From NCBI GenBank assembly GCA_026988355.1, contig JALSLK010000023.1, positions 1 to 64,000 on the forward strand: a DNA stretch of 64,000 nucleotides, given 5' to 3'. The position numbers were made by a program, and so were the translations under genes. The stretch comes from Flavobacteriaceae bacterium. Lineage in GTDB: Bacteria; Bacteroidota; Bacteroidia; Flavobacteriales; Flavobacteriaceae. Numbering within the stretch: the stretch's first letter is position 1; each line of letters starts with the position of its first letter. The notes beneath the pieces are model-generated. The model was not told the DNA's origin, did no database searches, and saw nothing but the letters and a program-made list of their open reading frames with translations. Positions 1,708 to 61,404 of the stretch are shown piece by piece.

Positions 1708-3012
1708 TTACCGATGAAGAACTTTTTTAAACTGATAAAAAAAACGGTCTATCAATCTCAAATCTTCTGTGATAATTTCGGCTATTCCTTGCATTTCTTG
1801 TTTAAAAATTATTTCTTGGTTGTATGAGGTAATCAAAGTTTTTGGTAAAGTAACATCTACCAAATAAAAACCATCTTTATTGGGTATTAAAGATACATTT
1901 TTCACAGTTCCTTGAAGCATTCCAAATTCATACTCTGGATAGTTAGCTAACTTGATATTTACTTTTTGTCCGATTTTTATCTTACCAGAATTTTGTCTTG
2001 GTGTTTTTAGTTTGGCTATAAAATTAGAATTATCTGTCGGAATTATGGTAAAAACCAAATCTCCTTGTTTTACCCTTTGATTTTTATCCCAAATGCCCAA
2101 AAAAGATACTTTTCCATTTATTTTTGATTTTAGTACGTATTGTAGTTCCCAGTTTTTAATACGTTGTTTAAGTTGATTTAAGGATTGAATTACATTTTTT
2201 AACAATATCATTTCTTCTTTTGTTCTACTTATTTCTGTTCCTTTAGATGTTTTCTTTGCATTACTTATACTTTCTCTTAATTGAGAAGTAGATGCACTCA
2301 TTGTTTTAAAATTGCGTTCAAATTGTAAATACTCTAATTGTTTATTATCGTATTCTTGTGCCGAAATCATTCCTTTATTATACAAATTTTTATTTCTAGC
2401 CAAGTCTTTTTTCTTAAAGTTTAGTTCTGCTTTTTGTATTGCTTTTTGCGATTTTAAATTAATTAAACGTCTATTTAATTCCGATACGGTTATTTTGTTT
2501 GCTAAAGCATCATTGGCAAAAGGCTGTAATTCTATATTTAATCTGTATTGCATGTAGGCATTTTCAAATAGTGAAAAATCCGATTCTAATTCTCCTAAAA
2601 ACAATACTGGTAATTTATCTGTTGGAAAATAGAATGTTTCTTTATGTTTTATTTTTAAGGTATCTAAAACCGATTGTAATAGTATAACATCTTTATAATT
2701 GGCTGTATTTTCTATTATTGCTAAATTTTGATTGTCTTTTACATTTTGATTATCTTTTACAAAAATGGCATCAAATTTACCTGTGGATTTTGCATATTCT
2801 TTTTGTGGTGGTATTTCTGTGGTAACTAAAACTTCTGAAGTAATAATATCTGGATATTTTACAAACCAAGATATTGCCAATAATAAAAGTATTAATGCTA
2901 AAAACAGAATACTTCCCCATCGTATCATCCAATGTGGTACACTTGTTAGTATTTCTTGTACTTCTTCGCTTCGGAGTTCTAGTTGTTCAAGATGTTTATT
3001 TTCGTTACTCAT
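1708..3012 (-). CDS. HlyD-family periplasmic adaptor of the peptide exporter
   Basis: This is a 434-aa membrane fusion protein. It has a short cytoplasmic start, one membrane helix (about residues 29-50), a lipoyl/barrel half-motif, a long coiled-coil hairpin (about 160-270, rich in Lys, Glu and Leu) and a C-terminal beta-barrel segment. It should link the C39/ABC exporter in the inner membrane to an outer-membrane channel. It starts 13 bp after the transporter gene and is the last gene of the grasp-with-spasm operon. No TolC-like gene is in the window, so the outer-membrane partner must be encoded elsewhere. Family assignment is firm; the cargo is inferred from context. Confidence 0.88.
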   Translation of the reverse strand: MSNENKHLEQLELRSEEVQEILTSVPHWMIRWGSILFLALILLLLAISWFVKYPDIITSEVLVTTEIPPQKEYAKSTGKFDAIFVKDNQNVKDNQNLAIIENTANYKDVILLQSVLDTLKIKHKETFYFPTDKLPVLFLGELESDFSLFENAYMQYRLNIELQPFANDALANKITVSELNRRLINLKSQKAIQKAELNFKKKDLARNKNLYNKGMISAQEYDNKQLEYLQFERNFKTMSASTSQLRESISNAKKTSKGTEISRTKEEMILLKNVIQSLNQLKQRIKNWELQYVLKSKINGKVSFLGIWDKNQRVKQGDLVFTIIPTDNSNFIAKLKTPRQNSGKIKIGQKVNIKLANYPEYEFGMLQGTVKNVSLIPNKDGFYLVDVTLPKTLITSYNQEIIFKQEMQGIAEIITEDLRLIDRFFYQFKKVLHR

Positions 3013-3025
3013 TTTATCCTATGTA

Positions 3026-5215
3026 TTAACTTCCTAATTCCAATTGATTTTTAACCAAATGGTAATAATTCCCTTTTCGTTTTATTAGTTCTTGATGGTT
3101 TCCGATTTCTACTACTTTTCCGTTATCTAATACTACGATTTGGTGTGCATTTTTAACGGTGCTTAGTCTATGTGCAATAACTAAAACCGTTTTGTTTTCA
3201 AAAAAAACATGTAGTTTTTCCATAATTGTTTTTTCATTATTGGCATCTAATGCACTTGTTGCTTCGTCAAAAAATAAAAAATTAGGATTTTTATATACTG
3301 CTCTAGCAATTAATAAACGTTGTTTTTGTCCTGTACTTAATCCAACGCCTTCCATTCCGATTTTTGTATTGTAAGATAATGGTAAACTCTCTATAAATTC
3401 TCGAATATTGGCTACATTTACGGCATGTGCTAACTTTTTTTTGTCGATATAATCTACACCTACTGCAATATTATTGGCAATATTGTCATTAAATATATAT
3501 CCTTCTTGCATTACTACGCCACATTGATTTCGCCATGTTTTTTGAGAAATATTTTTCAAATCGTAGTTCCCTAGTTTTATTTGTCCATTATTCGGCTCGT
3601 AAAACTTCAATAAGAGTTTCATTAAAGTTGTTTTTCCACTTCCACTAACGCCAACGATAGCTGTTATTTTATTGGCTGGGATATGTAAATCTAATTCTTT
3701 TAATACTTCTACTTCCGAACCAATATATCGAAACGATACTTTTTCTAGGGTAATAGCTACGTCCTTATTTATTTCCGTTATTTTATCGGTGTCTTGTTGC
3801 TCTTCGTCTTCTTTGTTGTGAATCTCAGACAATCGCTCTAAGGAGATTTTTGCATCTTGTACTTCTCGTATAAAATTTATTAGCTGTGCTATTGGCGAAT
3901 TTAATTGTCCGACGATATAAGATATTGCCAACATCATACCTAGTGTTATATTGCCATCTATTACCAATTTAGCAGATAATATACTGATAAATATATTTTT
4001 AAATTCATTTATAAAATTTGAACCTACATTTTGGTACTGGTCTAATGCTAATCCTTCAATAGAGAGTTTAAATAATCTTGCTTGTAAAAACTCCCACGAC
4101 CATCGTTTTTGCTTTTCGGCATTGTGTAATTTTATTTCTTGCATTCCGTTGATGAGTTCGATTACTTTACTTTGTTCTTGGCTTACTTGCGAAAAACGTT
4201 TGTAGTCTAAATCTCTACGTTTTTTTAAAAATAATATAATCCATAAGAAATATAAAAAGCTACCGATTAAAAAAATGGCAAATATTTGTAAGCTGTAATA
4301 TGCCAATACAAAACTAAAGACGATTAAATTAACCATCGAAAACAATACATTTAAACTAGAGGTTGTAAGTATTCGCTCTATTCGTTTGTGGTCGTTGATA
4401 CGTTGTAATATATCTCCTGTCATTCTAGTATCAAAAAAGGCTATTGGTAAGTTCATTAGTTTGATAAAAAAATCAGATACTAAAGAGATATTAATACGTG
4501 TACTTAAATGTAACAATATCCAACTTCGTATTACTGTAATAGCTGTTCTACCGACAAATAATGCCAATTGTGCGAATAATATTAAATATATAAAATGTAT
4601 ATCTTGGTTTTTTATACCAACATCTACCACACTTTGCGTTAAAAATGGTAAAATAAGCTGCAATAAACTTGCTGCTATTAAACCGATAACCAATTGCCAT
4701 AAAAATTGCTTGTATTTTAATACATATTTACTTAGAAATGTAAATCCGAAGTTTTTTTCTTCTTTGTCAAATTTGGTAGTATAAAATTTTGGTGTGGTTT
4801 CTAAAAGTAATGCAATTCCCTCTTCTGTGGTTTCTGTGGCATTGTTACCTATCCAATATTTTAAAAACTCTTCTTGATTATATTTTAATAAGCCATGTGC
4901 AGGGTCGGATATGTAAAATACTCCTTTTTTTATTTGATAAAGTACCACATAATGGTTTTTATTCCAATGTAAAATACATGGTACTGGTGCTTCTAATAAT
5001 CGTTTTAGATTTATTTTTATTCCTAGACTTCTAAAGCCTATTTTTTCCGCAGCTTCACTAATACCTAATAAACTGCTTCCCTCTCTTGTGGTTTCGCTTA
5101 GGTTTCGTAATTCACGTATACTAATACTTCTTTTATGGTATTTTGTGATTATTTTTAAACAAGTTGCTCCACAATCTTTGGATTCTAACTGTTTGTAATG
5201 TGGGAATTTTAACAT
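3026..5215 (-). CDS. Peptidase-containing (C39) ABC exporter
   Basis: The protein has 729 aa in three parts. The N-terminal C39 cysteine peptidase (about 1-130) shows Gln9 and Cys15 in KQLESKDCGAT, a His in HWNKNHY and an Asp in the following DPA. A six-helix ABC membrane domain (about 170-460) follows. The nucleotide-binding domain has Walker A GVSGSGKTT (about 523), signature LSTGQ, Walker B FLFFDEATSALD and the H-loop AHRLST. Such proteins cut leaders after a double glycine and export the core. Both candidate precursors in this island (7429-7692 and 15026-15238) have a leader ending in GG, so one exporter may serve both. The ATG lies 1 bp after the gwsS stop. Confidence 0.92.
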   Translation of the reverse strand: MLKFPHYKQLESKDCGATCLKIITKYHKRSISIRELRNLSETTREGSSLLGISEAAEKIGFRSLGIKINLKRLLEAPVPCILHWNKNHYVVLYQIKKGVFYISDPAHGLLKYNQEEFLKYWIGNNATETTEEGIALLLETTPKFYTTKFDKEEKNFGFTFLSKYVLKYKQFLWQLVIGLIAASLLQLILPFLTQSVVDVGIKNQDIHFIYLILFAQLALFVGRTAITVIRSWILLHLSTRINISLVSDFFIKLMNLPIAFFDTRMTGDILQRINDHKRIERILTTSSLNVLFSMVNLIVFSFVLAYYSLQIFAIFLIGSFLYFLWIILFLKKRRDLDYKRFSQVSQEQSKVIELINGMQEIKLHNAEKQKRWSWEFLQARLFKLSIEGLALDQYQNVGSNFINEFKNIFISILSAKLVIDGNITLGMMLAISYIVGQLNSPIAQLINFIREVQDAKISLERLSEIHNKEDEEQQDTDKITEINKDVAITLEKVSFRYIGSEVEVLKELDLHIPANKITAIVGVSGSGKTTLMKLLLKFYEPNNGQIKLGNYDLKNISQKTWRNQCGVVMQEGYIFNDNIANNIAVGVDYIDKKKLAHAVNVANIREFIESLPLSYNTKIGMEGVGLSTGQKQRLLIARAVYKNPNFLFFDEATSALDANNEKTIMEKLHVFFENKTVLVIAHRLSTVKNAHQIVVLDNGKVVEIGNHQELIKRKGNYYHLVKNQLELGS

Positions 5216-51736: not shown

Positions 51737-52525
51737 TTATTTTTTAAAGTATTCACGTACCTTTTTATCCATCGTATAGTCCAAATCATCTTCTTCGATA
51801 TAACGTTCTCTTGTAATGCGAGGAGTTATAGAAAAATCGCCTTCAGCAGTGCTAAATTTACTCATTTTTATAGCTTTTTCTTTGTATTTTTTTTTGAATT
51901 CGCTCCAACTATAAAATTTCTTTTTTAGAGTATATGAATTTGTCAAATCAAAGGTATTGGCCTCTTGTTTGGAAATTTTTATTTTGGTTGCTTCATAACT
52001 ACAGTAACCATCTTTAGAATCAGCTTTTAAAATCATACCAGGTAAACCGTCAAATTTCCATGGTCCACCAGCGATCAATTGTGTAGTAAACCAAGCTTGG
52101 TAAGTTCTACCTCTAAAAAAAGTCTCCGCTAAAGTACATACATATCCTAAGATTTCTTTCTTTTCCTTTTTTATATTCCAATTTATAATGTTAATAGAAT
52201 CTTTAATTGTAAAAAGTTTAAATCCTATCAAATCTTCGGAATACATTTCGTTATTCTTATAATTTTTATATACCAAACGATTCTTAGAATTTTTAGGTTT
52301 AAATTCGATAGCATCATCCTTGATTCCTATATTATTTTTGATTGTTTTTTTTTTGGAATACTTACTAATGTTACCAGACCTAAGTAAATAATGTTTAGCC
52401 TGCCAAAATGTATTAATGCTATCGTTTCTTATGGTTTCTACATATTCAATTTCTGTAACAGTTACATCCATGCCAATTATTCTTGTAAAACTTGCAAATA
52501 CAAGAATGAGAATTAAGTATTTCAT
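51737..52525 (-). CDS. GLPGLI family protein, paralogue B (divergent)
   Basis: The 262-aa protein is the middle copy. The signal peptide differs (MKYLILILVFASFTRIIGMD) and the middle keeps LIAGGPWKFDGLPGMILKAD and DGYCSYEATKIKIS. Its N-terminal third (about 20-90) and last 40 residues differ from paralogues A and C. The 39-54 bp gaps on both sides contain pieces of the same leader sequence (aacactactcaaaaaa). It could bind a different partner from A and C. Confidence 0.86.
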   Translation of the reverse strand: MKYLILILVFASFTRIIGMDVTVTEIEYVETIRNDSINTFWQAKHYLLRSGNISKYSKKKTIKNNIGIKDDAIEFKPKNSKNRLVYKNYKNNEMYSEDLIGFKLFTIKDSINIINWNIKKEKKEILGYVCTLAETFFRGRTYQAWFTTQLIAGGPWKFDGLPGMILKADSKDGYCSYEATKIKISKQEANTFDLTNSYTLKKKFYSWSEFKKKYKEKAIKMSKFSTAEGDFSITPRITRERYIEEDDLDYTMDKKVREYFKK

Positions 52526-52564
52526 ATTTTTTTATTTTATTTAACACTACTCAAAAAAATTCAT

Positions 52565-53347
52565 TTAATCCATAGATTTTTTCAAATCACTTTCAAATAA
52601 ATAGTCTGTATCATTTTTTTCAATATAGCGTTCTCGTCTTAATCTTGGAGCAACAAAAATAATACTACTTCCTGGATTATATTTACTCATTTTAATAGCT
52701 TTTTCTTTGTATTTTTTTTTAAATTCCGTCCAACTATAAAATTTCTTTTCTAAAGAATATGGGTTAGTTGTGTCAATTGTATTGTCCTCTTGTTTGGAAA
52801 TTTTTATTTTGGTTGCTTCAAAACTACAGTAACCATCTTTAGAATCTGCTTTTAAAATCATGCCAGGCAAACCATCTAATTTCCAAGGACCACCAGCAAT
52901 TAATTGTGTAGTAAACCAAGCTTGGTAAATTCTACCTCTAAAAGAACTTTCTGCTAGAGTACAAGTATATCCTAATATTTCTTTCTTTTCGTTTTTTATA
53001 TTCCAATTTATAATATTAATTGAATCTTTAATTGTAAAAAATTTAAAACCCACAAGATCCTTAGAGTACATTTCATTTTTGCTATAATCTTTATAAAGAA
53101 TTTCAGCTTTTGAATTTTTTGGATTAAAATCAATATCTCCTCTTTCCGTACCTACACTAGATTTTATTACTTTTTTCTTCAAGTATTTACTATTATTTTC
53201 TGTTCTATATAAATAATATTCTCCTTGCCAAGACACATTGATACTATCTTCTCTCTTAGTTTCTAAATATTGAATTTCACTAACAGTTAAAGTAGGTTTA
53301 TTAATGGTAAAACTTATAAAAGTTAGAATAATAATTAAGTATTTCAT
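52565..53347 (-). CDS. GLPGLI family protein, paralogue C
   Basis: The 260-aa protein is the first of the three in transcription order. It has a signal peptide, SFRGRIYQAWFTTQ, then LIAGGPWKLDGLPGMILKAD. It is nearly identical to paralogue A along its length. It is separated from the upstream two-cysteine secreted protein by a strong hairpin (53365-53406), the same layout as at 20942-22098. Confidence 0.86.
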   Translation of the reverse strand: MKYLIIILTFISFTINKPTLTVSEIQYLETKREDSINVSWQGEYYLYRTENNSKYLKKKVIKSSVGTERGDIDFNPKNSKAEILYKDYSKNEMYSKDLVGFKFFTIKDSINIINWNIKNEKKEILGYTCTLAESSFRGRIYQAWFTTQLIAGGPWKLDGLPGMILKADSKDGYCSFEATKIKISKQEDNTIDTTNPYSLEKKFYSWTEFKKKYKEKAIKMSKYNPGSSIIFVAPRLRRERYIEKNDTDYLFESDLKKSMD

Positions 53348-54169: not shown

Positions 54170-54823
54170 TTATAGTTGGTCAGAATTAGCAATTGCATCA
54201 CAAGTGTCGGCTATCATTTTTGTAGCGACAGGGGCAGCAACTAATGAGCAAGGTCCACAAGATGCAGTTGAAACTACGCTTATTACAGCTCCAAATGTTG
54301 CACCTAATAGCCAACATCCCATAGATTTTTCACTATAGTTGTCCGAGATATATGTTAAACTATTTAAAAAATTAATTTCGGATATAGATAGGTTGCTTGA
54401 TGATATATAATCTTGAATTATTGAAGAATCTATATTTTCGATATTATTAATCAATAAGTTTTTAGTATCATTACTAATATAATTTTCTTGAAAAAGATAA
54501 TTAGCAGAGTTTTGAATAATAAGATTACGTGATATATTCTCATCTAACACACCAAGTTGATTTAGGATACTTTCTGCATTTTCGATATCTTGTTCAGTCA
54601 ATAAATTTGATTTAGAATTTAAAAAGTTATTTGTGTAATCATAGAAAGAATTAACGGAACTAAAATTAATATGAGATTTTACTTGATTAAGGTTTTTAAT
54701 ATATGATTTTGCATCAAAGTTAAACTCATTTAATGTTTTTTTATCAACATTATCAGATTGAGTACAAGAATTAAAAGTTGACAGAATTACTGTAATTAAA
54801 ATGATTAGGGTTTTAAATTTCAT
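54170..54823 (-). CDS. Lipoprotein with cysteine-rich hydrophobic tail
   Basis: The 217-aa protein has a lipobox (STFNSC, Cys20) and a helical Asn/Ser-rich middle (about 30-165). The C-terminal 50 residues differ: MGCWLLGATFGAVISVVSTA, then SCGPCSLVAAPVATKMIADT and a final Cys. That makes four Cys in a hydrophobic, Gly/Ala-rich stretch, reminiscent of halocin C8-type or other processed bacteriocin tails. The 5' leader is identical over 27 bp to that of 53425-53757. Toxin or signal function is speculative; I do not recognise a named family. Confidence 0.65.
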   Translation of the reverse strand: MKFKTLIILITVILSTFNSCTQSDNVDKKTLNEFNFDAKSYIKNLNQVKSHINFSSVNSFYDYTNNFLNSKSNLLTEQDIENAESILNQLGVLDENISRNLIIQNSANYLFQENYISNDTKNLLINNIENIDSSIIQDYISSSNLSISEINFLNSLTYISDNYSEKSMGCWLLGATFGAVISVVSTASCGPCSLVAAPVATKMIADTCDAIANSDQL

Positions 54824-55247: not shown

Positions 55248-55318
55248 TTTTTTTTTTTTTTTTTTTTTAAATATTTAAAAAAAAAAAAAAAATTTTTTTT
55301 TTTTTTTTTTTTTTTTTT
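55248..55318. repeat. Long homopolymer tracts T21-A16-T26
   Basis: A run of 21 T, the 8-bp AAATATTT, 16 A and 26 T lie in direct series. Such length is rare in bacterial chromosomes. It may be a slippage hotspot or an assembly or sequencing fault, so the base counts should not be trusted. Confidence 0.85.
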
Positions 55319-55330
55319 GTAAAATATTGA

Positions 55331-58665: not shown

Positions 58666-58956
58666 ATGAAAAGACGAGAATTTATAAAAAAAACAGGAAA
58701 AGTAATTTTATCTACAGCAACAATATCGATAGTAGGTATTTCTTTAGCATCATGTAGCTCTGATGAAGAAAGTGAAGAAAATTTGTGCGGCGGTTATTAT
58801 GTAGATGGCTATTATATGGATGGTTATTATAACGATGGCTACTATGTAGATGGCTATTATATGGATGGCTATTACGAAGACGGTTACTATGTAGACGGTT
58901 ATTACGAAGATGGTTATTATGTAGACGGTTATTATGAAGGTGGATATCCTTGTTAA
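58666..58956 (+). CDS. Tat-type lipoprotein with GYYxD tandem repeats
   Basis: This 96-aa protein is highly unusual. It begins with a twin-arginine signal (KRREFIKKTGK) and a lipobox LASC (Cys30), then an acidic linker (SDEESEEN). From residue 43 it is nine copies of Gly-Tyr-Tyr-x-Asp (x is Val, Met, Asn or Glu), one GYYEG and a final GYPC. Cys41 and Cys96 bracket the repeat. The DNA repeat unit is 15 bp (58792-58941). It lies 24 bp before a GT9 gene. No family is recognised. It looks like a substrate for modification, or a sticky surface protein. Confidence 0.85.
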   Translation: MKRREFIKKTGKVILSTATISIVGISLASCSSDEESEENLCGGYYVDGYYMDGYYNDGYYVDGYYMDGYYEDGYYVDGYYEDGYYVDGYYEGGYPC

Positions 58957-58980
58957 TAGTAGTTTCTTTTAAAAAAAATT

Positions 58981-60660
58981 ATGATTAAAATTGCATTATT
59001 GCATAATATTGTATTGGATGATAATGTAGAAATAATCCATAATTTGATAGATACAGTTTCCAATTACAATATAGAATTAGCTCTTGTTAAGCAGAAGGAT
59101 ATTGAGGCTGCAAAAAAAACAATATTAGCTGCCGATATAACCATAGTAGATGCTACTTATCGCAATGCGTTTGAGTTTGAAATTTTTAATTTTATCGAAA
59201 AAAATGCAAGGTATGTTTTTGTAGATTCAAGTTACAGTTTTTGTGCGTATAACACATATACTTGTTTTACAGACAGTAGCATTAAAAATTGTTGTAATAA
59301 AGATAAGTTTCATCTATATAGAAACTTATATGTCCATGCAGCTCTAAATGTTTTTTCTTCCGAATTAACAAAAAAATCCTATGAAAAATTGTATGGAAGT
59401 ACAACGTCAAAAGTTATAATAGATACTTTAATAGATAAAAATAAGTTAGATGCTTATTTTAAAGAGAATTTTTGGAAAAACATAAAAGAAAGATTAAACA
59501 CGACACCTAAAGAAACATCTTTTAAAGAAGTGTTTGTTTATAAAAGTTATGGAGGATTAGGAGATTATTTTATAGCACTTCCTGCAATGTACAAGTTGCA
59601 AAAGGTTTCAAAAAAAGTGACAATAGGTGTGCCAAAAAACGTACTTGGTACATTTAAAAGAAACACAAAAGGATTTCAAATTATTGCCGCAGATAATATT
59701 GAAAATATAGATTTTTCAAAATACGATAAAGTAATAAATTTAGGGAATTATCCAAAAAGAATCAGAGATAGTGAAGTAGAAGGAATGATAGATTTTCCTA
59801 CACAAAACAAATTAAAACAACATTCCTCAAGGCATTATACAGATGCAATCGCAGCATTACATCCAAAAATAGATAACAAACACAAAAGGTATCCATATTT
59901 TAAAAATAAGATAGATAAAAAAAATAGATATTTTACCATTCATCCAGGAGCAGGATTTGAACCAAAATGGTGGAAAACGGAGAATTATATAGCATTAATC
60001 ACACAATTATTAAAAAAATTACCACAGTATACATGTAAGATAATTTTAGGACCATCCGATCCAAAACCTACTAATTTTGAAAAGATAAAACGTGTAGAAT
60101 TTGAATTAGGAAATTTAGATGCAGTTGAAAAATGTGTATCAGGAGCAAGTTTTCATATAGGAAATGATTCAGGAATAACACATTTTGCAGGAGCATTTAA
60201 CATTCCGTCAGTGGCAATACATGGTTTAACAGGGCCAGGAGCTTGGGCAACTATGGCAGAGCAAACAGAAGTGATTTGGGGAAAACCTGGAAATTGCGAT
60301 ATTTTATGTAGATACGATACTGCGATGAGTTGTAAACATCGTTCTTGTTTAAATTCAATATCGGTAAAAAAAGTTTTAGAATCGGCATATAAATTAATAC
60401 AAAGAAATCTAACTATGGATGAAAAAATAAAATATGTATTTAATCCAGAAGTGATTATTACCAAAGAAAAACAAAGTTTTATTCTAAAGAAAAGTACTAA
60501 TGAAATGCTTATTGAATTTAAAAATGAGAGCGAATTTTCGGAATTTAATACGTTAATTAATGACGATTTAATAGAAGATAATGTAAAAAATGAAAGTTTA
60601 ATTCCGTTAATAGAAGCATTAATAGCGCAAGAAATAATTTTTAAAATACCAATTTTATAA
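58981..60660 (+). CDS. GT9-family glycosyltransferase with extra C-terminal domain
   Basis: The 559-aa protein has three parts. The N-terminal 180 residues resemble half of a GT-B fold. A glycosyltransferase family 9 (heptosyltransferase-like) domain spans about 181-475: GGLGDYFIALPAMYKL at 191, HPGAGFEPKWWKTENY at 321 and GNDSGITHFAG at 394. The C-terminal 80 residues (479-559, INPEV-type start and alternating short strands and helices) recall PqqD-like peptide-recognition domains by eye only. A Cys-rich stretch (CDILC... CKHRSC) precedes it. It is the immediate partner of the GYYxD lipoprotein, so tyrosine glycosylation of the repeat is one idea. Confidence 0.8.
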   Translation: MIKIALLHNIVLDDNVEIIHNLIDTVSNYNIELALVKQKDIEAAKKTILAADITIVDATYRNAFEFEIFNFIEKNARYVFVDSSYSFCAYNTYTCFTDSSIKNCCNKDKFHLYRNLYVHAALNVFSSELTKKSYEKLYGSTTSKVIIDTLIDKNKLDAYFKENFWKNIKERLNTTPKETSFKEVFVYKSYGGLGDYFIALPAMYKLQKVSKKVTIGVPKNVLGTFKRNTKGFQIIAADNIENIDFSKYDKVINLGNYPKRIRDSEVEGMIDFPTQNKLKQHSSRHYTDAIAALHPKIDNKHKRYPYFKNKIDKKNRYFTIHPGAGFEPKWWKTENYIALITQLLKKLPQYTCKIILGPSDPKPTNFEKIKRVEFELGNLDAVEKCVSGASFHIGNDSGITHFAGAFNIPSVAIHGLTGPGAWATMAEQTEVIWGKPGNCDILCRYDTAMSCKHRSCLNSISVKKVLESAYKLIQRNLTMDEKIKYVFNPEVIITKEKQSFILKKSTNEMLIEFKNESEFSEFNTLINDDLIEDNVKNESLIPLIEALIAQEIIFKIPIL

Positions 60661-61404
60661 ATCAAATTTTTCTTCAATGATTTTCCAATCAAAATTTAAA
60701 AATAATCTACTATGAGCTTCGAATGGGTCTCTATTTTTATCTAATAAAATGTTTTTTTTAGCATTGTATAGAGGTCTAGTATTTTCTTCATTACGAATTA
60801 AATGGTGTTGAGGATTTTTAGATTCTTTATGTTCTGAAAACTGAATTGGATGGTCTTTAAACTTGTACAATTTGGTTCCCAAGCGTTTTTGCATATCCAA
60901 AAAGAAAACATCTTCATGACCGTAGTTTCCGCAAAACTCCTCGTCAATACCTAAAGATTTAAAGTAGGTACTTTTACTAATAAAAAAGGTATTGTAATGC
61001 GACACAACTTCTTTCTTATTTATCATACGTCTAAAAACAAAAATATCATTAGGAATAGGAAAATTAAAAAGAAATTTAAAAGATTCTTCCGTAAATAAAT
61101 GATCCAAATCGGTTACAATTAACTTTTGCGATTTGGATAAATGAACACCTAAATTTCTTGCACCACCTTGGTTCCATTTAATATCTGTAGTAACTTTAGC
61201 AATGGTGTAATTTAAAGTATAGGTATTGGGAATAGAAATTTTAATAGGCGAACAATCATCAATAAAAATAAAATGAATATGTTTCAAGATATTTTTAGGC
61301 AAATTATTATAGGTATCTAACAATTTATAAAAATCATCCGATTTTTTTTGCTCGTTGTATATCTGTACGACATAGCTAATTTTTATTTGATTGTATTTTA
61401 GCAT
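60655..61404 (-). CDS. GT2-type glycosyltransferase
   Basis: The 249-aa GT-A fold protein has ISYVVQIYNE near the start, IFIDDCS, NQGGARNLGVHLSKSQKLIV, a DxD-like TDLDH and the galactosyltransferase-type C-terminal motif GNYGHEDVFFLDMQKRLG. It overlaps the GT9 gene tail to tail by 6 bp and abuts lysS. It may act on the same glycan as the GT9 protein, but it is on the other strand and the link is inferred. Confidence 0.85.
   Translation of the reverse strand: MLKYNQIKISYVVQIYNEQKKSDDFYKLLDTYNNLPKNILKHIHFIFIDDCSPIKISIPNTYTLNYTIAKVTTDIKWNQGGARNLGVHLSKSQKLIVTDLDHLFTEESFKFLFNFPIPNDIFVFRRMINKKEVVSHYNTFFISKSTYFKSLGIDEEFCGNYGHEDVFFLDMQKRLGTKLYKFKDHPIQFSEHKESKNPQHHLIRNEENTRPLYNAKKNILLDKNRDPFEAHSRLFLNFDWKIIEEKFDL

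Follow-up and report, generated by a model that had tools for sequence, protein, structure and literature searches.

A Tat-signal GYYxD-repeat lipoprotein paired with a GT9 glycosyltransferase: a probable protein-glycosylation system of Flavobacteriaceae

Gene content of the locus

The analyzed stretch of DNA, referred to below as the window, comprises 64,000 nucleotides from a member of the Flavobacteriaceae (GenBank assembly GCA_026988355.1, contig JALSLK010000023.1). It encodes a short lipoprotein built of GYYxD repeats behind a Tat signal peptide, followed on the same strand by a glycosyltransferase (GT) of the GT9 family and, in convergent orientation, by a GT2-family enzyme (Table 1). 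The first two of these proteins had been described in an earlier reading of the DNA (here, the original prediction), and both descriptions hold. The lipoprotein has the 96 residues and the nine GYYxD units claimed for it, along with a tenth unit, GYYEG, and the 559-aa enzyme combines an N-terminal part and a C-terminal segment of ∼80 residues (referred to as the tail) with a GT9 domain that scores well above the Pfam cut-off (PF01075, residues 295 to 439, E value of 6e-14, 52.4 bits against a cut-off of 22).

Table 1. Features of the GYYxD lipoprotein-glycosyltransferase locus (positions in the window)
Feature	Position	Strand	Basis
Tat-signal lipoprotein with GYYxD repeats, presumed glycosylation acceptor	58666..58956	+	96 aa; ORF and sequence; homologues upstream of the GT in all readable relatives
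Tat signal peptide/presumed leader, to lipobox Cys30	58666..58755	+	RR and F invariant in 58 leaders; TatC in the same genome
Repeat units, ten (nine GYYxD, one GYYEG)	58792..58941	+	
Glycosyltransferase: GT4 N-terminal half, GT9 domain, recognition-like tail	58981..60660	+	559 aa; PF01075, E value of 6e-14; homologues in 27 of 399 family genomes; AF2 and Foldseek
Remaining N-terminal half of GT4-like domain; catalytic half with EX7E missing	58981..59460	+	Alignment; relatives match PF00534 and a GT4 structure
GT9 domain, invariant D195, K329, D396, H401	59521..60408	+	
Four-Cys motif C-x3-C-x7-C-x4-C, GT9 C-lobe	60295..60348	+	Invariant in 39 aligned sequences
C-terminal recognition-like domain (tail)	60412..60657	+	AF2 pLDDT 92.4; Foldseek ranking; stand-alone homologue in Hanstruepera ponticola L104
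GT2-family glycosyltransferase, second transferase of the system	60655..61404	-	PF10111/PF00535; convergent, 6-bp overlap with the GT; homologues beside the GT elsewhere

Upstream of this locus, a tandem pair of paralogues (262 and 260 aa; positions 51737 to 53347) matches PNGase_F-II_N, and its first member also matches the GLPGLI family. A 217-aa lipoprotein-like ORF (54170 to 54823) has no match in Pfam or NCBIfam; its Gly/Cys-rich hydrophobic C terminus (GCWLLGATFGAVISVVSTASCGPC) is reminiscent of bacteriocin-like tails. The intergenic region at 55249 to 55319 contains long homopolymer runs of T and A, possibly an assembly artefact.

Conservation and phyletic distribution of the gene pair

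The lipoprotein and the GT constitute a real, conserved system. In the initial set of 60 relatives, five further genomes encoded the GT, each time immediately preceded on that strand by a Tat GYYxD lipoprotein gene. The GT is found in 27 of 399 Flavobacteriaceae genomes and the repeat in 26, all of them among the 27; in the only genome in which the GT was seen without the repeat (G133), the contig ends just upstream of the GT. None of the 399 genomes encodes the repeat without the GT, and a control search of the same genomes with the reversed repeat pattern returned zero matches. Fisher p values for the co-occurrence are 5.9e-40 by genome and 4e-26 by genus, both inflated by shared ancestry among the genomes compared. 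At least four genera (g74, g117, g150, and g177) include a species with both genes alongside a species with neither.

An unbiased scan of GTDB contigs for the GYYxD pattern identified 80 loci, 64 with Tat repeat proteins and 16 with unrelated Gly/Tyr proteins; the latter include two loci (L135 and L139) that a script had grouped as Tat and that showed no Tat signal on inspection. The GT or its tail adjoins the repeat gene in all 61 Tat loci with enough downstream DNA and is found beside none of the 16 non-Tat proteins (from Henriciella, Nostoc, Sphingomonas, Arenimonas, and others). With 26 of 27 genomes and 61 of 61 readable Tat loci in agreement, the two proteins form the dedicated pair that had been proposed, and the truncated contig of G133 is the sole case of a tailed GT9 homologue with no repeat protein seen nearby.

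The system occurs in Aequorivita, Psychroserpens, Flavobacterium, and their relatives, comprising marine and freshwater flavobacteria. Beyond the family, matches across the phylum correspond to ordinary, tailless GT9 genes, and a search of plasmids found none. The window copy is divergent, so that a single-protein search for related loci returned no relatives; these were recovered in a separate genome search. The Ppx/GppA and SixA genes upstream and lysS downstream were rejected as parts of the system because neighbors vary between genera, and no flippase, polymerase, ligase, or sugar-nucleotide synthesis genes are conserved in the neighborhood of the system loci.

Domain organization of the glycosyltransferases

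The GT9 domain of these enzymes has retained its motifs, with the Asp of GGxGD, the Lys of KxW, and NDxGxxH invariant in 39 sequences. The C-lobe of the window enzyme aligns to WaaC, and its D195 is presumed, from the motif, to be the equivalent of WaaC D13. The AF2 model of the whole enzyme has a pLDDT of 81, with a confidence below 50 in the four-Cys loop. A Foldseek search with this model gave TibC, WaaF, a Veillonella GT9 protein, and WaaC as the best PDB matches (E values of 1e-9 to 1e-8 for TibC, WaaF, and WaaC); TibC came first by E value and WaaF by TM-score. WaaF and other GT9 enzymes of the lipid A core obtain scores as good as that of TibC, and the fold is thus compatible with either a protein or a lipopolysaccharide (LPS) acceptor. 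The enzyme carries no signal peptide and therefore must act in the cytoplasm. As for the donor, the original prediction had named hexose or heptose. No HldE adenylyltransferase was found in any of the 20 system-bearing genomes searched, in a search that did match E. coli and others, which makes ADP-heptose unlikely; the donor is more plausibly of the hexose type.

Typical relatives of the window enzyme are ∼690 aa long and consist of a GT4-like domain with the EX7E motif, the GT9 domain, and the tail. The GT4 part matches PF00534 in 8 of 20 members (best E value of 1.9e-5) and a GT4 structure with an E value of 0.0012. The window protein has lost ∼145 residues in frame from this domain, corresponding to the catalytic half, and kept the N-terminal half. 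Accordingly, the GT-B-like N-terminal part noticed originally does exist but is no more than the leading half of a GT4 domain that is complete, with EX7E, in most relatives. Members of a clade centered on Psychroserpens and Aureisphaera have no GT4 domain at all, and their GTs are ∼400 aa long. The GT4 half retained in the window includes a C-x6-C-x8-CC cluster (GT residues 88 to 105, positions 59242 to 59295), a possible metal site, in which C88, C95, C104, and C105 are invariant in the alignment; it has been preserved despite the loss of the catalytic half.

The convergent GT2 gene is part of the system, although neither this gene nor the GT4 half of the relatives figured in the original prediction. 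Homologues of the window GT2 protein, 40 to 60% identical to it, are encoded next to the GT at other repeat loci, with the convergent arrangement recurring in L116 and L130. A GT2 gene lies beside the GT in 10 of 10 cases in which the GT lacks the GT4 half, the window included, versus 3 of 48 cases in which the GT has it (p = 5e-9, a value inflated by shared ancestry, with no more than about two independent losses behind it). In the tree, loss of the GT4 half occurred at least two times and in every instance coincided with the presence of GT2. This complementarity points to the GT4 half and GT2 as functional equivalents, so that the sugars added probably number at least two. In the clade of short GT9 enzymes, the neighboring GT2 takes the form of a DUF5672-GT2 fusion (L106, positions 2578 to 3978, and relatives), which suggests a role for DUF5672 in this pathway.

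The C-terminal domain

The tail had been likened to a PqqD-type peptide-recognition fold. Its AF2 model consists of four strands, a helix, a short turn, a second helix, and a final strand. In a Foldseek search of the PDB, RRE-bearing RiPP enzymes comprise 13 of the best 50 matches and lead the ranking, with ThcOx, McbB, TruD/LynD, MccB, the PbtF RRE, TbiB1, and a lasso B1 protein at the top; the best E value in this search is 0.15, and none reaches 1e-3. Comparison with the isolated PbtF RRE gives TM-scores of 0.62/0.59. Sequence comparisons yielded no corresponding signal: the PqqD profile (PF05402, Pfam/NCBIfam) matches 0 of 40 tails, hhalign of the tail against 30 Bacteroidota PqqD proteins gives a probability of 1.6% and a score of 15.0 versus 14.2 for the best shuffle, and a sequence search of solved structures returned chance matches only. 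The alignment of 40 tails contains few invariant positions. RRE domains are defined by a strict beta3-alpha3 order (PMC12710340), from which the tail departs in the pattern and count of its helices in the AF2 model. With no profile match, an hhalign score at the noise level, and a different order of elements, the tail was not assigned to the PqqD/RRE family; what survives of the original proposal is a likeness to RRE domains in the structural ranking. A Pfam match to CARM1 (E value of 0.001) was also rejected, being seen in 1 of 40 members and below the cut-off.

The tail is a separable module that is found only together with the repeat protein. In the second locus of Hanstruepera ponticola (L104, positions 2080 to 3331), it is encoded as a separate gene of ∼80 codons between the repeat lipoprotein and GT2, in a locus that has no GT9. 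The 399 family genomes contain 28 strong matches to the tail, all within the 27 GT-bearing genomes; weak matches in G001, G336, and G385 (E values of 1e-5 to 1e-3) lie inside unrelated genes and were dismissed as chance. The tail also has the genomic context of an RRE-type domain, being fused to, or located beside, the presumed modifying enzyme and precursor in all 61 readable loci. The stand-alone tail in L104 and the absence of tails elsewhere in the 399 genomes lend independent support to a recognition role. Judging from its model, this domain may work like a recognition element without being classed as PqqD/RRE.

Signal peptide and repeats of the lipoprotein

The window lipoprotein begins with the Tat motif MKRREFIKK and continues through the lipobox LASC (Cys30) into SSDEES. 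It thereby combines the twin-Arg motif and the lipobox Cys of a Tat-exported lipoprotein, in a genome that encodes the Tat translocase (TatC). In the leader alignment, RR is found in 58 of 58 sequences and the lipobox Cys in 57 of 58. Conservation is unusually high beyond RRxF, with 3.3 to 4.1 bits at K8, S10, G11, S18, I22, T23, and G24, which fits, without proving, recognition of the leader. The lipobox Cys is followed by Ser in nearly all members and by a C-S-S-D-D consensus in the relatives. This SSDD matches the surface-export signals of Bacteroidota lipoproteins, acidic stretches after the lipid-bearing Cys such as SDDDD and SDDFE (PMC5080379), and the acidic residues after Cys30 point to a probable surface location of the repeat lipoprotein.

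The 66 distinct members of the lipoprotein family have from 3 to 18 repeat units (median, 8), mostly GYYDD or GYYGD. The units of the window protein differ in synonymous codons; thus, the repeat is kept at the protein level and is not a product of recent slippage. Ser, Thr, and Asn account for just 27 of the 2,702 residues in the repeat regions of the 66 members, leaving Tyr and Asp as the only abundant residues with oxygen-bearing side chains; the Asp in the last position of the unit is conserved as well as Tyr. Essentially nothing beyond the leader and the repeats is present in 49 of the 66 proteins, and the other 17 carry an additional C-terminal domain of ∼100 aa.

The cysteines that flank the repeat units in the window (Cys41 and Cys96) had been described as bracketing them. 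A scripted test found the later Cys in only 1 of the 66 distinct proteins, so that this bracket, private to the window genome, was discarded as a functional feature. A Xanthomarina protein has GYYCD units instead. In Altibacter lentus (L131, positions 2020 to 3059), two different tandem repeat lipoproteins, of which one has the C-terminal domain, precede a single GT.

Proposed function and alternative explanations

The gene pair and its accessory transferase are probably a dedicated protein-glycosylation system of the Flavobacteriaceae, in which the repeat receives several sugars in the cytoplasm and is then exported by Tat. The tail of the GT9 enzyme would hold the lipoprotein precursor in the cytoplasm, most likely via the conserved Tat signal or leader, and the GT9 domain, together with a second transferase (the fused GT4 half or, as in the window, the separate GT2), would build a chain of at least two sugar residues on the repeat. 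Because the repeats are nearly free of Ser, Thr, and Asn, tyrosines would be the most likely site. The Tat translocase accepts folded or modified cargo; with a cytoplasmic enzyme and an acceptor that leaves by Tat, modification before export is the simplest order of events. The modified protein would be exported, lipidated at Cys30, and delivered to the external side of the outer membrane, where it could form a densely glycosylated brush or a glycan anchor. In its most specific form, which can be put forward only tentatively, this proposal implies a new class of ribosomally encoded, tyrosine-poly-glycosylated surface lipoproteins, whose many tyrosines are decorated prior to export by GT9, GT4, and GT2 enzymes recruited through a previously unrecognized recognition domain, resulting in a covalent glycan brush.

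The lipoprotein could also be the acceptor at some other residue, with the repeats serving only as a spacer or for recognition. The sugar might be ester-linked to the Asp of GYYxD, which is as well conserved as Tyr, or attached to Ser/Thr, either near the lipobox, given the Ser that nearly always follows its Cys, or in the C-terminal domain found in 17 of the 66 proteins. However, the 49 members that are essentially leader plus repeats and the variation in unit number from 3 to 18 speak against this reading. Generic O-glycosylation in Bacteroidota is periplasmic and needs D(S/T) motifs, which are missing from the repeats. Modification outside the tyrosines appears somewhat unlikely.

An unlikely alternative is that the transferases assemble or elongate a glycan that is lipid-linked or of the LPS type, which the lipoprotein binds, presents, or anchors, non-covalently or via a separate ligase, with the tail docking the GT to a partner and not to a precursor peptide. 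In such a case, the GT and the lipoprotein could be linked as enzyme and scaffold rather than enzyme and acceptor. LPS and capsule pathways often include GT9, GT4, and GT2 enzymes, WaaF and WaaC are matched as well as TibC, and the same genomes contain further GT9 genes. Nevertheless, no other glycan-assembly genes are conserved nearby, the repeat protein is the lone stable partner of the GT, which is never found without it, and in L104 the tail alone accompanies the repeat protein and GT2. Finally, low-complexity Tyr/Gly repeats do exist in unrelated bacteria, as in the 16 non-Tat loci, but a chance adjacency of such a lipoprotein and an ordinary GT9 has a negligible probability in view of the GT or tail in 61 of 61 Tat loci and the co-occurrence in 26 of 27 genomes (p = 6e-40).

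If modification of the repeat before export is the correct reading, these two or three genes would represent a protein-glycosylation system of minimal genetic size, whose acceptor is repetitive and free of Ser/Thr, and repeated Tyr O-glycosylation in bacteria would become directly testable. A GT9 member would join the short list of protein-acting transferases, and RRE-like substrate capture would be seen to feed Tat export to the cell surface. Unannotated gene families in Aequorivita, Psychroserpens, Flavobacterium, and their relatives would gain a testable function.

Comparison with known systems

In the open-access literature, no paper retrieved with the terms used describes this lipoprotein-GT pair. 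Among NCBIfam models, TIGR04117 (Cys-Xaa-Xaa-Xaa repeat radical SAM target protein) matches the leader only, with an E value of 0.0022, below its curated cut-off; it likewise describes a repeat peptide behind a similar leader, although with a different repeat and as the target of a radical SAM enzyme. Cacaoidin is a ribosomal peptide with a disaccharide on Tyr, for which GT2 and GT4 enzymes have been proposed (PMC8068269). This actinobacterial lanthidin, however, has a single glycosylated Tyr and involves no GT9, Tat lipoprotein, or repeats.

The RRE-guided RiPP enzymes share with the present system a small beta-rich/helical domain that is fused to the modifying enzyme or encoded beside it, an adjoining short precursor with a leader, and the existence of discrete versions of the domain. 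In contrast to them, the tail has neither a PqqD/RRE profile match nor the strict beta3-alpha3 helices, and the product would stay a lipid-anchored protein. Genome mining has noted fusions of the RRE with GT2 (PF00535), whereas a fusion with GT9 (PF01075) is not mentioned there (PMC12710340).

Another close parallel is with the bacterial autotransporter heptosyltransferases (BAHT) TibC and AAH. Their substrate is an autotransporter, whereas the presumed one here is a Tat lipoprotein built from Tyr repeats; the N-terminal beta-barrel of BAHT is replaced by the GT4 half (an alpha/beta N terminus) and the recognition-like tail, and HldE, required for ADP-heptose, is absent. TibC has an iron finger of four cysteines (PMC4358343); the four invariant cysteines of the present enzymes are spaced as C-x3-C-x7-C-x4-C rather than the C-x2-C-x15-C-x11-C of BAHT. 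Both systems nonetheless have four cysteines near the end of the GT domain and a repeat-rich substrate, presumed in the present case; TibC is the top Foldseek match by E value, and in both systems an enzyme of the GT9 fold is encoded with a dedicated surface protein, which BAHT hyperglycosylates (PMC4358343).
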